This document shows positions 4,630 through 42,216 of a stretch of DNA of 64,000 bases, piece by piece. The notes below the pieces were generated by a model, which saw nothing but the letters and a program-made list of their open reading frames with translations, did not search any database and had not been told where the DNA came from. Positions within the stretch are counted from its first letter, which is position 1. Every line of letters starts with the position of its first letter. The position numbers and the translations under genes were made by a program. This stretch comes from Ferrovum sp. (GTDB lineage Bacteria > Pseudomonadota > Gammaproteobacteria > Burkholderiales > Ferrovaceae), in the NCBI GenBank assembly GCA_010435995.1, contig JAAGNR010000070.1, positions 1 through 64,000 of the forward strand. Reading direction: 5' to 3'.

Positions 4630-5928
4630 TTGGTTAACGACAGAATCCCGGAAAAGACCTTGCCTGATTCCTCTGCCCATCAGCTGCACGCCTTCGGCCT
4701 GAACCATGAAACGGCCCCCATTGCCATTCGCGAGCGGGTGGCGTTCCCCCAGGATCGTCTGCAAACTGCGCTGAATGCCCTGATTCAGGCCACGCCGGCA
4801 GAGGAAGCCGTCATTCTGTCCACCTGCAATCGTACCGAAATCTACTGCAAAACCCCCCATCCGGAAACCGTGGCCGACTGGCTATCAGATCACCATGATC
4901 TGGCTGGCTTTGACATTACCCAGTACCTCTACCATCTCGACGGCAGTGCGGCTGCGCACCATGCGTTTCGTGTGGCTGCCGGACTGGATTCCATGGTACT
5001 GGGGGAAACTCAAATTTTAGGGCAGGTAAAACAAGCGGTGCGTTATGCCGAGGAAGCCGGTACCCTGGGTCCTCTGCTCAACAAAATGTTCCAGCAAACC
5101 TTCTCCGTAGCCAAAGCGGTGCGCAGTCAAACTGCCATTGGTGAGCGCTCCGTGTCTTTGGCTTCCGCCGCCCTCAAGTTGACGGCCAATGTGCTGGGAC
5201 CCATGGAAGAACAACGCGTCCTGTTCATCGGCGCCGGTGAAATGATTGAACTGGTAGCCACCTACTTTCTTGCCCGGCATCCTCAAGCCGTCACTGTAGC
5301 CAATCGCTCTCTGGAGCGCGGTCAGGCTCTGGCTACGCAACTCAATGGGGAATGCATTGCGCTAACCGACCTTCCCTTGGCGCTGCCACACCATGATGTG
5401 ATCATTTCCTCCACCGCCAGCCATTTGCCTCTCATCGGCAAAGGTATGGTGGAGCGGGCGTTACGCCAGCGCAAACATCGCCCTATGGTCATGATAGATC
5501 TGGCCGTACCCCGCGATATCGAACCGGAAGTGGCAAAACTGCAGGATGTTTTTCTATACACCGTGGATGATCTGGGAAAAGTCACCCAAGAAAATCGTGA
5601 CTCGCGCCAATTGGCCGTCGATGAAGCGGAAAACATCATCACCGAACAGGTGAACACTTTCCTCAGCTGGATTCAGTCGCGCGGCATCGTCCCCACCATT
5701 CGCTCTTTGCGCGACCACGCCGAAAACTATCGTCAACTGGAACTGGACAAAGCGCGGCGCGCTTTGAGCCGTGGAGAAGATCCGGCAAAAGTGATCGAAC
5801 ACTTGTCCCAGAGCTTGATGAACAAATGGCTGCATCATCCCGTGCAAGCGCTTCATCACTCTCAGGGAACGAGACAGCAATCCCTGGTGGATGCCATCCG
5901 TCATCTTTTCCCTGGGGAAAACACTTGA
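4630..5928 (+). CDS. hemA: Glutamyl-tRNA reductase
   Basis: [40 protein letters not shown] motifs. Confidence 0.96.
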
Positions 5929-7013
5929 AATCTTCCCTGCATCAACGCCTCGAAACCCTGCGTCAGCGCCAAACCGAACTTGACCAACTGCTGGTTGATC
6001 CGGCCCTGTCCCAACAACTCGACCAATACCGAAAACTCACCAAGGAACGTGCTGAGCTGGCCCCCGTGGTCATGCTGTACGAAGAATACCGGGGCATTGA
6101 AAATGACATCGAGGCCGCCCAATCCTTGTCTCAGGAAAATGCCGAATGGCGCGCCTTTGCCGAAGAAGAGACACGCCATGGTCAGCAGCGTCTGGTTCAA
6201 CTGGAGAACGACATCCAACAGGCATTGCTGCCGCGCAACCCCAACGATGACCGCAATATTTTCCTGGAAATTCGTGCAGGCACCGGCGGAGATGAATCAG
6301 CATTATTTGCTGGCGACCTGTTTCGCATGTATGCACGCTTTGCGGAACGACTGGGGTGGCACACCGAAATTCTGTCTCACAGCGATGGGGAAATGGGTGG
6401 CTTCAAGGAAATCATCTGTAAGATCGAGGGAACCGGAGCCTTTGCTCGTTTCAAGTTCGAGTCCGGGGGGCATCGGGTACAACGCGTTCCTTCCACAGAA
6501 ACCCAAGGCCGGATTCACACGTCGGCCTGCACCGTAGCCATTCTTCCGGAAGCCGATGAACTCAGCGAGGTCACCCTCAACCCAGCGGATCTGCGCATCG
6601 ATACTTTCCGCGCCAGTGGTGCCGGAGGACAGCACATCAACAAAACCGACTCGGCGGTACGCATCACCCACCTCCCCAGCGGTCTGGTGGTGGAATGCCA
6701 GGATGGGCGCAGTCAACATAAAAACAAGGCTCAGGCTATGTCCGTATTGGCCGCCCGCCTGCGCGACAAGCAAGAACGCGAGCAACATGCCAAGGAAGCC
6801 GCAACCCGCCGTTCCCTCATCGGCAGCGGGGATCGTTCAGAACGCATACGCACCTACAATTTCCCCCAGGGACGGATCACCGATCACCGCATTAATCTCA
6901 CCCTGTACAAAATTGAAGCCATGATGGATGGTGACTTGTTTGAACTCACCGGCACACTCATGACCGAACACCAAGCCGACCTCCTGGCAGGACTGGCCGA
7001 CTCCCTCGACTGA
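5925..7013 (+). CDS. prfA: Peptide chain release factor 1
   Basis: GGQ motif in [21 protein letters not shown]; probable TTG start at 5925 overlapping the hemA stop (TTGA); the track's upstream ATG (5826) lies inside hemA. Confidence 0.94.
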
Positions 7014-38773: not shown

Positions 38774-40501
38774 ATGAGCTTTGCCCTCCATGGCATTGCT
38801 GTGGCCCATGGCATTGCCATCGGCCGAGCCCACCTGTTTTCCCAAACCAGTCTCGAAGTGACCCACTATGTGGTTCTGCCGGAACAACGGGCAGCCGAGA
38901 TACAGCGTTTTGACGAAGCCCTGCATCATGTCACCCATGAACTCAAAGGACTGGAACAGCAGATCCCCCCTGGAGCACCGCCGGAAATGGCGGCTTTCCT
39001 GCAGTTGCACCGCATGATCCTGAAGGACGATACCCTGGCACGCATGCCCAAACAGCGCATTCAGGATCAGGGCTGTAACGCCGAATGGGCATTAAAGCAA
39101 CAAGTAGACAGCCTGATCGCCCAGTTCGAGCAAATGGAGGATCCCTATTTACGCCAGCGGCGCGATGACATCTGGCAAGTCGGGGAACGACTGCTCAAGG
39201 TCCTGATGGGACAACCTGCCCCCAACCTCCCCCCCCATGGCGAGGCCGCTGACAGTATTCTGGTCGCCCACGACATCAGTCCGGCGGATATGGTGCTATT
39301 CAAACAGCATCCCTTTCAGTCGTTTATTACGGACATGGGTGGAGCCACCTCCCATACATCGATTTTGGCTCGCAGTTTGGGAATCCCCTCGGTAGTTGCC
39401 CTGCATCATGCGTGGAAGATGATCCGTGAAGGCGAAATTCTGATCGTCGATGGCATGGCGGGAGTCGTGATCGTCAACCCAGACTCACAGATTCTGGCGG
39501 AATACCGCCTGCGTCAGGAGCTCTGGCATCTGGAACGACAGAAGCTGAAACGCCTGCGCTCCACCCGCGCGACCACCCTTGATGGTACCCCCATCGAACT
39601 GTTAGCCAATATTGAAATGCCCGAGGATATGGACGCTGTCAAGAAAAGCGGGGCGCGCGGTATCGGCCTGTTCCGTACCGAATTTCTATTCATGAATCGC
39701 CACGATCTTCCCGGTGAAGAAGAACAGTTCCATGCTTACCGGCAGGTGGCTGAAGCCATGCGCGGACTGCCCGTGACCATCCGCACCCTGGATATTGGCG
39801 CCGACAAGCCTGTAGAACCCAGCGGCATTGCCTCAACCCTGAACCCAGCCCTGGGATTGCGCGCCATCCGCTACTGCCTGGCCGAACCCCAGTTGTTTTC
39901 CACCCAGATTCGCGCCATTTTGAGAGCTTCTCATTTCGGCCAGGTACAGCTGCTGATTCCCATGCTGTCGAGCCGTCACGAACTGCTGCAAACTCTTGAT
40001 CTGGTAGAACAAGCCAAGGTTGACCTGCGTGCCGAAGGCATCCCCTTCAACGACAGGCTCCCTCTGGGAGGAATGGTAGAAGTCCCAGCAGCGGCCCTGG
40101 CTTTACCCCTGTTCCTCGATAAGCTGGATTTCTTCTCCATCGGCACCAATGATCTGATTCAGTACACCCTAGCCATCGATCGCACCGATGATGCCGTGGC
40201 TCACCTCTTTGATCCGTTACATCCTGCCGTGTTGTTGCTTATCTCACACACCATCCGCACCGCCCACAAGGCCGGCAAACCCATTGCCGTCTGTGGGGAA
40301 ATGGCGGGGAACTCAGCCATGACGAGATTGCTCCTGGGGTTTGGCTTACGCGAATTCTCCATGCACCCTGCCCATCTCCCGGAAGTTAAGCAAGCCATCC
40401 TGAAAACCAGCTTGGCCGACTTGCAAGCCCCCATCAAGCGCATTCTCGCCACCTACGACCCCACCAAACTGGAAGAAAGCGTCACTCGTCTCAACGCATA
40501 G
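38774..40501 (+). CDS. ptsI: Phosphoenolpyruvate-protein phosphotransferase (EI)
   Basis: DMGGATSHTSILARSLGIPSVV, GIGLFRTEFLFM, SIGTNDLIQYTLA, CGEMAG. Confidence 0.96.
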   Translation: MSFALHGIAVAHGIAIGRAHLFSQTSLEVTHYVVLPEQRAAEIQRFDEALHHVTHELKGLEQQIPPGAPPEMAAFLQLHRMILKDDTLARMPKQRIQDQGCNAEWALKQQVDSLIAQFEQMEDPYLRQRRDDIWQVGERLLKVLMGQPAPNLPPHGEAADSILVAHDISPADMVLFKQHPFQSFITDMGGATSHTSILARSLGIPSVVALHHAWKMIREGEILIVDGMAGVVIVNPDSQILAEYRLRQELWHLERQKLKRLRSTRATTLDGTPIELLANIEMPEDMDAVKKSGARGIGLFRTEFLFMNRHDLPGEEEQFHAYRQVAEAMRGLPVTIRTLDIGADKPVEPSGIASTLNPALGLRAIRYCLAEPQLFSTQIRAILRASHFGQVQLLIPMLSSRHELLQTLDLVEQAKVDLRAEGIPFNDRLPLGGMVEVPAAALALPLFLDKLDFFSIGTNDLIQYTLAIDRTDDAVAHLFDPLHPAVLLLISHTIRTAHKAGKPIAVCGEMAGNSAMTRLLLGFGLREFSMHPAHLPEVKQAILKTSLADLQAPIKRILATYDPTKLEESVTRLNA

Positions 40502-40513
40502 CGCCTCCCCCCT

Positions 40514-40690
40514 TCACTGGGTTCCCACCACCACCAGCGCTGTGGTCGCCACCGCCGAATTCTGCGCCTGCAATTGCGCTGTCGTGGGCCCAACACTGCT
40601 TGCCGTCGTGCCACTACTGCTGCTCCCGCCACCGCAGGATACCACCAGCAGGGTTGCCGCCAGGGACCCCCATCTCATGAATTTTTTCAT
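40514..40690 (-). CDS. Small (58 aa) putative lipoprotein, absent from the supplied ORF track
   Basis: MKKFMRWGSLAATLLVVSCGGGSSSSGTTASSVGPTTAQLQAQNSAVATTALVVVGTQ*; lipobox LVVSC; GAGGAG ribosome-binding site before ATG. Confidence 0.7.
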   Translation of the reverse strand: MKKFMRWGSLAATLLVVSCGGGSSSSGTTASSVGPTTAQLQAQNSAVATTALVVVGTQ

Positions 40691-40761
40691 GTCACACTCC
40701 TCACCAACAAATTTCAGGCCAATACCTCAATGGGCTCCACAACCTGCCATCCTGTCACCCC

Positions 40762-41352
40762 CTAGAACTGGCACACCCCGCCGCCACTGCCATCCTGTAC
40801 CTGTACCAGCAGGGTATTGCCCCCATTGACCGGTATGACCAGCAATACGGGTCCCGCTCCGGGTGCTGCCGTCCCGTTCTTGGCGGTCATGGTCAGCACC
40901 ATTTGCACTGCCCCCGGAACCGTGGCTGTTCCCTTCTGCGGCGCAACCGTGAATGTTCCCGAGGTGACCAGCGTTGAATCTGTCGTCGTAGGAGCGGGGC
41001 TGGCACTGGTATAACTTCGATCCACCTCGGCCACACTGAAGGTTCCCGAACTCCCCGCAAAAGTGAACTGACCCATCAACCCCAAGATAAACGGACCCAC
41101 CGTTGTTGCTGAACTCGCATGCACAGCTTGGTTATAATCCACCACACTCTCCCCTGCGGCCAAAATCATATTGATCTCGAAGCCACAGGTTCCCGAAGTC
41201 GGCATGGAGGCGCTGGGTGCCAGAGGCGTCTGAATCACGCCGGCGGGCGCTGACGCCGCCAGGGCCGACCCACAGAACGCTATGCCCAGCACCAGAGCCA
41301 ATACCCTGCGCCCAACCCCCGTTTCATTCCATTTCCCCATTTTTTTCATCAT
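40762..41352 (-). CDS. Secreted protein of unknown family, paralog A
   Basis: GAGGAGA RBS then MMKKMGKWNETGVGRRVLALVLGIAFCGSALA signal peptide; PTSGTCGFEINMILAAGE...VNGGNTLLVQVQDGSGGGVCQF*. Confidence 0.82.
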   Translation of the reverse strand: MMKKMGKWNETGVGRRVLALVLGIAFCGSALAASAPAGVIQTPLAPSASMPTSGTCGFEINMILAAGESVVDYNQAVHASSATTVGPFILGLMGQFTFAGSSGTFSVAEVDRSYTSASPAPTTTDSTLVTSGTFTVAPQKGTATVPGAVQMVLTMTAKNGTAAPGAGPVLLVIPVNGGNTLLVQVQDGSGGGVCQF

Positions 41353-41398
41353 TTTTCTCCTCACAAATCCATTGCTCGTGGTCAATCTGGCCATCCGT

Positions 41399-41974
41399 TC
41401 AAAACTGGCAAACGCCGCCGCCATTGCCACCCGTCTGGTTCTGGATCAAGAGCGTCTTGCCCCCATTGACCGGCATCACCAACAAATTGGTCGTCGTATT
41501 GTTCGGCGGCACAGCAGCGGTTCCAGACGAACCGGCTGCCATATACCCGGTAGTGGTCAGAACCAGCGGATAGGTCCCTGTGGGGTTATAGGTCAGAGGC
41601 GTTCCTGGCGCCATCGTGCCGCTGATGATCGTTACCGTATCGGTTGGAGCTGGATTTGTTCCGGGTGTACTATACTGGCGCGTCAGACGGGACAGGGTCC
41701 AGGTATTGTGGGTGAAATCCAGCACCCCCATAATCGACAGGTCAAAGCCAGAACCCGTCGTGGTCCCAGCTATAGCCAACTGCTGCAGAACCGCATTATC
41801 TCCAGCGGCCAACACCCGATTCACCTGAATGCCACAACTGCCCGAGGTAGGCAGGGCCGTGGCATTGGCCGAGGGCACCCCGGCGACTTGAAGTACGCAT
41901 ACGCCCAACGCCACGGTCATCCACCGTGCCATGGATCCCCGACGCTTCCCCTGTTCTTTAGTATTTATCATCAT
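41399..41974 (-). CDS. Secreted protein of unknown family, paralog B
   Basis: GGAGG RBS; signal peptide; LPTSGSCGIQVNRVLAAGD...MPVNGGKTLLIQNQTGGNGGGVCQF*; clear paralog of 40762-41352. Confidence 0.82.
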   Translation of the reverse strand: MMINTKEQGKRRGSMARWMTVALGVCVLQVAGVPSANATALPTSGSCGIQVNRVLAAGDNAVLQQLAIAGTTTGSGFDLSIMGVLDFTHNTWTLSRLTRQYSTPGTNPAPTDTVTIISGTMAPGTPLTYNPTGTYPLVLTTTGYMAAGSSGTAAVPPNNTTTNLLVMPVNGGKTLLIQNQTGGNGGGVCQF

Positions 41975-42216
41975 TGACCTCCACAATCAGTCGAATGCAA
42001 CCGCAAGAAACCATCCCCTGTGTGCCTGTATTACCATGCCCAGCACTTGACTGAAGCATAGCAATTTCAGATACCGTATCCAACTCCCAAATGGGATAGA
42101 AAGCCCCGATTTTTAAATGCGGAAGATAATGCTTGGAGGAAAGCGCAGAGAATGACGGAATTTCCCGACGTAAAGCCCATGTCCCTAAGACCTGTTCGGG
42201 CAAGTCCGGTTTGTGG

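Follow-up and report, generated by a model that had tools for sequence, protein, structure and literature searches.

Colicin release (lysis) lipoproteins are encoded by tiny genes that follow immediately on the gene of an exported protein. Sorting of lipoproteins by the Lol system follows the residue at position +2, a rule derived from E. coli. LptM, a small lipoprotein, promotes the maturation of disulfides in the barrel protein LptD (PMC10567701), and NHBA is a surface lipoprotein whose N-terminal region is disordered and whose C-terminal part forms an antiparallel barrel (PMC6104945). Here we describe a locus from a 64,000-nucleotide stretch of DNA (the window) in which genes for two exported proteins precede that of a micro-lipoprotein. 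It is a copy of a rare, real and apparently undescribed two-gene module conserved in distant genomes. No prior description was found in Pfam, NCBIfam, PHROG, PADLOC or PDB, and nothing relevant in the literature, subscription papers aside.

The three minus-strand ORFs with ribosome-binding sites proposed in an earlier note on this DNA are present, and the region is organised as follows:

41399..41974, minus strand: predicted exported two-Cys protein, paralog 1, 191 aa (ORF with ribosome-binding site, Sec-type signal)
40762..41352, minus strand: predicted exported two-Cys protein, paralog 2, 196 aa (ORF, BLASTP to paralog 1, profile)
40514..40690, minus strand: predicted micro-lipoprotein, 58 aa (lipobox and ribosome-binding site)
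40502..42216, no strand: accessory segment of ~1.7 kb holding the trio, bordered by the 3' ends of ptsI and pyrE
41975..42216, minus strand: region upstream of the trio, presumably its promoter and leader

The purine-rich ribosome-binding sites of the trio are GTGGAGGTCA-ATG, GAGGAGAAAA-ATG and GAGGAGTGTGAC-ATG. The mature chain of paralog 1 comprises ~153 aa, starts with TALPTSGSCG and carries its cysteines at mature position 9 and 3 residues from the end; that of paralog 2, with its cysteines at the same two positions, was modelled from ASMPTSGTCG onwards (149 aa). The micro-lipoprotein reads VVSC-GGGSSSS... at the lipobox and terminates with TALVVVGTQ.

The flanking genes end at 40501 (ptsI) and 42217 (pyrE). 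Since ptsI and pyrE are adjacent (0-15 bp) and without the trio in four congeneric genomes (L023-L026), the trio is to be regarded as accessory DNA; in a fifth (L027) the gap measures ~180 bp. At the same junction in another genome of the genus (L028) we found a gene for a c-type cytochrome with two CxxCH motifs (5314-6282), and the junction therefore takes up different accessory genes. Judged from these sequences, the trio is an insertion, or was lost elsewhere, at a site tolerating extra genes. The G+C content of the insert (57%) is similar to that of its neighbours, and that of the upstream region is 49%. A simple scan of 41975..42216 revealed no sigma-70-like promoter, and no repeats marking insertion ends were found around the trio.

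The two exported proteins of the window are paralogs, as had been claimed: BLASTP gave 84 bits and 38% identity over 164 aa (E 3e-25, as a single comparison), with an overall identity range of 38-42%. Single-sequence and library searches with the window proteins retrieved nothing from Pfam, NCBIfam, PHROGs, PDB sequences, phages or plasmids. Relatives were identified by iterative profiles: a two-row profile detected a single one, in Limnohabitans lacus (L038), and the three- and six-row profiles added L041, L042 and L045, and then L052 and L053. Paralog 1 was itself assigned to the family by profile search. Altogether, the family comprises eight exported proteins at seven loci, six of them relatives at six loci with the same gene order. 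L042 and L045, whose coordinates coincide with those of genomes G016 and G009, belong to the window's own family but to another genus, whereas L052 and L053 represent a different family within the order. No further copies were found in the window genome (G000, 1.85 Mb, 96 contigs, 87% complete). With the window excluded, 4 of the 400 genomes covered by the profile search within the order yielded true copies. Beyond the order, 219 genomes drawn from the class gave no copy; the sole weak match there had an internal stop and covered 52 positions. The distribution of the gene pair is thus sparse and sporadic.

A number of candidates were discarded. The single-protein search within the genus matched a ribulose-phosphate epimerase gene in the wrong frame (L006) and, over the same stretch of the query, four further weak sequences (L010, L011, L013, L014), all five with E of ~0.02-0.06. 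L030-L033, L035-L037, L043, L044 and L054 represent unrelated genes, broken frames or sequences without the motif, and L062 was rejected on the same grounds from its match row alone. A match in Enterobacter phage EcP1 (E 0.2) is antisense to a large N4-type gene.

The alignment of all eight members (A7) shows an N-terminal motif (S/T)G(T/S)CG and a C-terminal motif VNxGxTxLxQ...GVCQ, with G, C and G of the first and V, N, G, T, L, Q plus G, V, C and Q of the second being invariant. The earlier note had described exactly two cysteines per mature chain, one in each motif, and had named in advance homologs lacking the pair as a test of its reading. No such homolog was found: all eight mature chains possess exactly two cysteines, the first 5-9 residues from the start and the second 3-4 from the end. 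The pattern is not a matter of chance, since it recurs in six independently found homologs. The note had also recognised no known family, and none of the libraries (Pfam, NCBIfam, PHROG, PADLOC, PDB) placed the proteins in one.

The barrel gene, as we call the gene for the exported protein after its predicted fold (below), is under purifying selection (pN 0.145 versus pS 0.669, and 0.111 versus 0.466). This is less clear and weaker for the lipoprotein gene, where pN was 0.366 versus a pS of 0.749 that is near saturation, over 49 codons of one locus pair. In the tree the window paralogs cluster together (95/94), which argues for a duplication of the barrel gene in the window lineage; the Limnohabitans protein is their weak nearest neighbour (67/94). 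Tandem barrel genes occur in the window only, with one copy at each other locus. In L045 (~1364-1400; G009/G910) the barrel gene contains a run of eight T immediately behind an ATG (ATGAAAAAAATTAATTATTTTTTTTAA), which leaves this start in a different frame from the remainder; this may reflect phase variation, decay or an error in sequencing.

Micro-lipoproteins are easily missed because they fall below gene-length cut-offs. At all six complete loci one is encoded by the next gene after the barrel gene, and at the seventh (L052) the contig ends just past the lipobox. These proteins have 49-70 residues: the lipidation site reads CGGG, the middle is rich in Ser/Thr or polar in some other way, and the last stretch is mostly hydrophobic. 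Their C-terminus is loosely conserved (..VVxxGQ, with VVGL and VAASTQ also seen). As a control, we scanned both strands of eight sequences (168,861 bases) for ATG-started ORFs of 40-80 codons with a CGGG lipobox; all six distinct ORFs obtained lie directly downstream of a barrel gene. The eight sequences had been picked for holding the family or adjoining the window, and the scan thus speaks for positional specificity, not for genome-wide rarity. The micro-lipoprotein following the barrel at every locus, the conserved unit consists of one exported protein and one lipoprotein. The 58-aa gene of the window, with lipobox, ribosome-binding site and counterparts directly downstream of the homologs, is accordingly borne out as a lipoprotein gene. 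As for the suggested co-occurrence of two protein variants with a lipoprotein partner, the partner was found at all seven loci and the barrel/lipoprotein pair recurs in other genomes, but the tandem does not, the two variants being a local, window-only expansion. In Limnohabitans a 160-aa predicted membrane protein without Pfam match is encoded directly downstream of the lipoprotein (L038 6630-7112); none of the other loci inspected showed it.

The small lipoprotein might be a helper and not an anchor, one that assists the barrel in folding, in oxidation or in its release at the outer membrane, in the manner of LptM or colicin release lipoproteins. The gene order resembles that of the release lipoproteins, which follow directly on an exported cargo, and LptM, itself small, aids disulfide maturation of LptD (PMC10567701). 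Two members gave sub-threshold matches to the LptM profile (best E 0.041), but these are at the level of a generic lipobox, at which many unrelated lipoprotein models score equally. No colicin lysis family matched in Pfam even at E 10, and a single disulfide creates no obvious need for a dedicated oxidation helper. We consider a helper role unlikely. An antibacterial pair, in which the secreted protein with its disulfide clamp would harm competitors while immunity came from the small lipoprotein, would agree with the two-gene layout, the small secreted product, the accessory distribution and the lipoprotein partner. The proteins, however, show no catalytic or pore-forming signature and no meaningful match to toxin or immunity families, and so tiny and low-complexity a lipoprotein would be unusual as a specific immunity protein; this makes the idea very improbable.

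Two of the loci carry marks of DNA rearrangement:

L038 5429-11672: integrative element of 6.2 kb, located at tRNA-His of Limnohabitans lacus and carrying a tyrosine integrase, an Xre-type regulator and several small genes without assignment
L041 1163-1240 and 2305-2382: 78-nt, 92% identical duplication flanking the barrel/lipoprotein pair

A 17-bp direct repeat, TGGGGTGGCTGATGGGG, delimits the Limnohabitans element, with copies at 5429 and 11656. The latter copy forms the 3' end of tRNA-His and lies next to the integrase gene. The element also encodes a 249-aa TrwB/TraD-like protein that covers only the C-terminal part of the model. The duplication in L041 derives from the 3' end of the neighbouring xanthine-dehydrogenase-like gene. 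Placement of the Limnohabitans copy in an element with integrase and TrwB/TraD-like genes, the position of the L041 pair between the copies of its neighbour's 3' end, the sporadic distribution and the unrelated neighbourhoods of the loci would all suit a pair that travels as mobile-element cargo (a 'moron') and alters the host surface, e.g., for superinfection or surface exclusion. Against this, searches of 50,697 phage and 72,556 plasmid records and of PHROGs/PADLOC detected no homolog, and inspection by eye showed no mobile genes next to the pair in the window, L042, L045 or L053. The best PHROG match was phrog_7803 (E 0.004, with one of eight members), and phrog_3415 matched the lipoprotein (E 0.0085); neither was counted as a family match. 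Cargo of this kind is, in our view, quite unlikely to be the explanation.

Structure was predicted by AlphaFold with an eight-row alignment for paralog 2 of the window and for L042. Both models are all-beta, with pLDDT 81.3 and pTM 0.72 for the former and pLDDT 80.5 and pTM 0.67 for the latter, for which only one of five models exceeded a mean pLDDT of 70. Starting from different first sequences, they concur in about eight strands. In L042 these are E5-11, E21-31, E36-47, E50-66, E72-80, E83-94, E99-104 and E109-115, with the cysteines at residue 7 in the first strand and residue 113 in the last. The models would fit a barrel that is held shut by an N-to-C disulfide, closure and the distance between the cysteines being read from strand order. 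They agree with the compact beta fold, closed between its termini, that the earlier note had envisaged.

The first Foldseek matches were ligand-binding meander barrels, comprising lipocalins, fatty-acid-binding proteins and the lipid-anchored Neisseria barrels NHBA, HpuA, LbpB and fHbp. None was significant (no E below 0.001; best E 0.03, TM-scores ~0.25-0.45), and the search therefore supports the general class alone: the proteins are likely to be small meander barrels of eight up-and-down strands. Solved lipocalins ranked at the top with probability up to 0.98, but with E of at least 0.03 and TM of at most 0.45. The lipocalin profile (PF00061) gave 14.8 bits for one member against a cut-off of 23 (E 0.02-0.03) and nothing for the others.

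Eight strands in a mature chain of 113-153 aa would also fit an integral outer-membrane barrel of OmpX/OmpW size in place of a soluble one; three members end in Phe like outer-membrane proteins, and OmpW is among the Foldseek matches. The terminal Phe, however, is not conserved (others end in MQ, KI, GL and AL), Ser, Thr, Gly and Asn make up 40-51% of the residues, several strands have only 6-10 residues, and the OmpW match has a TM of 0.45 with an rmsd of 11.7 A. An integral barrel is thus highly improbable.

Taken together, we tentatively propose that barrel and lipid tether form a surface lipoprotein split into separate chains, the likeliest of the readings considered and one that may well be correct while falling somewhat short of probable. 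The first gene would encode a small Sec-exported protein that is predicted to fold in the periplasm to an eight-strand up-and-down beta-barrel, in which a single disulfide would join the extreme N- and C-terminal strands and close the barrel. The product of the second would be a lipoprotein in which the lipidated Cys is followed by a Gly, then by a flexible stretch rich in Ser and Thr, and finally by a short C-terminus of hydrophobic and strand-like character. The Gly occupies position +2, and outer-membrane sorting is predicted from it. The lipoprotein would act as outer-membrane tether and bind the barrel through its C-terminal segment; the pair would therefore work as a surface lipoprotein in two chains. 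The barrel itself may bind a ligand or shield the surface. In the window, duplication of the barrel gene would provide two variants per tether. A tether holding the barrel is the simplest reading because the pair of the two is invariant; against the split lipoprotein speak the loose conservation of the C-terminal segment and the window's single tether for its two barrels, which gives no obvious stoichiometry. A more specific version, rather unlikely in our opinion, is that an unstructured lipidated micro-protein captures an exported, disulfide-closed barrel at the outer membrane, perhaps lending it its C-terminal strand, so that barrels could be swapped or duplicated and the anchor kept constant. 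Export, the disulfide and the physical partnership of the chains we infer from sequence.

An anonymous trio of genes has thereby become a defined family of proteins whose partner is conserved, whose fold is predicted and whose cysteine chemistry is clear, and which lends itself to easy testing in a laboratory host. If the chains bind, they would represent an outer-membrane display route different from that of one-chain surface lipoproteins; if they do not, they may reveal a new use for micro-lipoproteins.

Compared with known systems, the predicted eight-strand up-and-down barrel resembles the calycin-type barrels (lipocalins and fatty-acid-binding proteins), which rank first in Foldseek. It differs from them in being shorter and closed by a disulfide between its termini, and neither the sequence nor the fold match is significant. 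LptM is likewise a very small outer-membrane lipoprotein tied to a disulfide-bearing barrel (PMC10567701), but the partner here is not LptD, the lipoprotein gene is paired with that of its partner, and the LptM profile (NF047847) matched nothing beyond lipobox level. With the colicin release lipoproteins the module shares a tiny lipoprotein gene directly after that of an exported protein, yet here the protein encoded upstream carries a Sec signal of its own, and a profile match is absent. The neisserial lipoproteins NHBA, fHbp, HpuA and TbpB/LbpB, found among the Foldseek matches, combine a small barrel with a flexible lipidated tether. In these, tether and barrel belong to one chain, whereas here they are encoded by two genes, and no sequence relation was found; judged by eye, the barrel proteins have non-lipid Sec signals without a lipobox, which resides on the downstream protein. 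NHBA (PMC6104945) would be the one-chain equivalent of the proposed two-chain arrangement.
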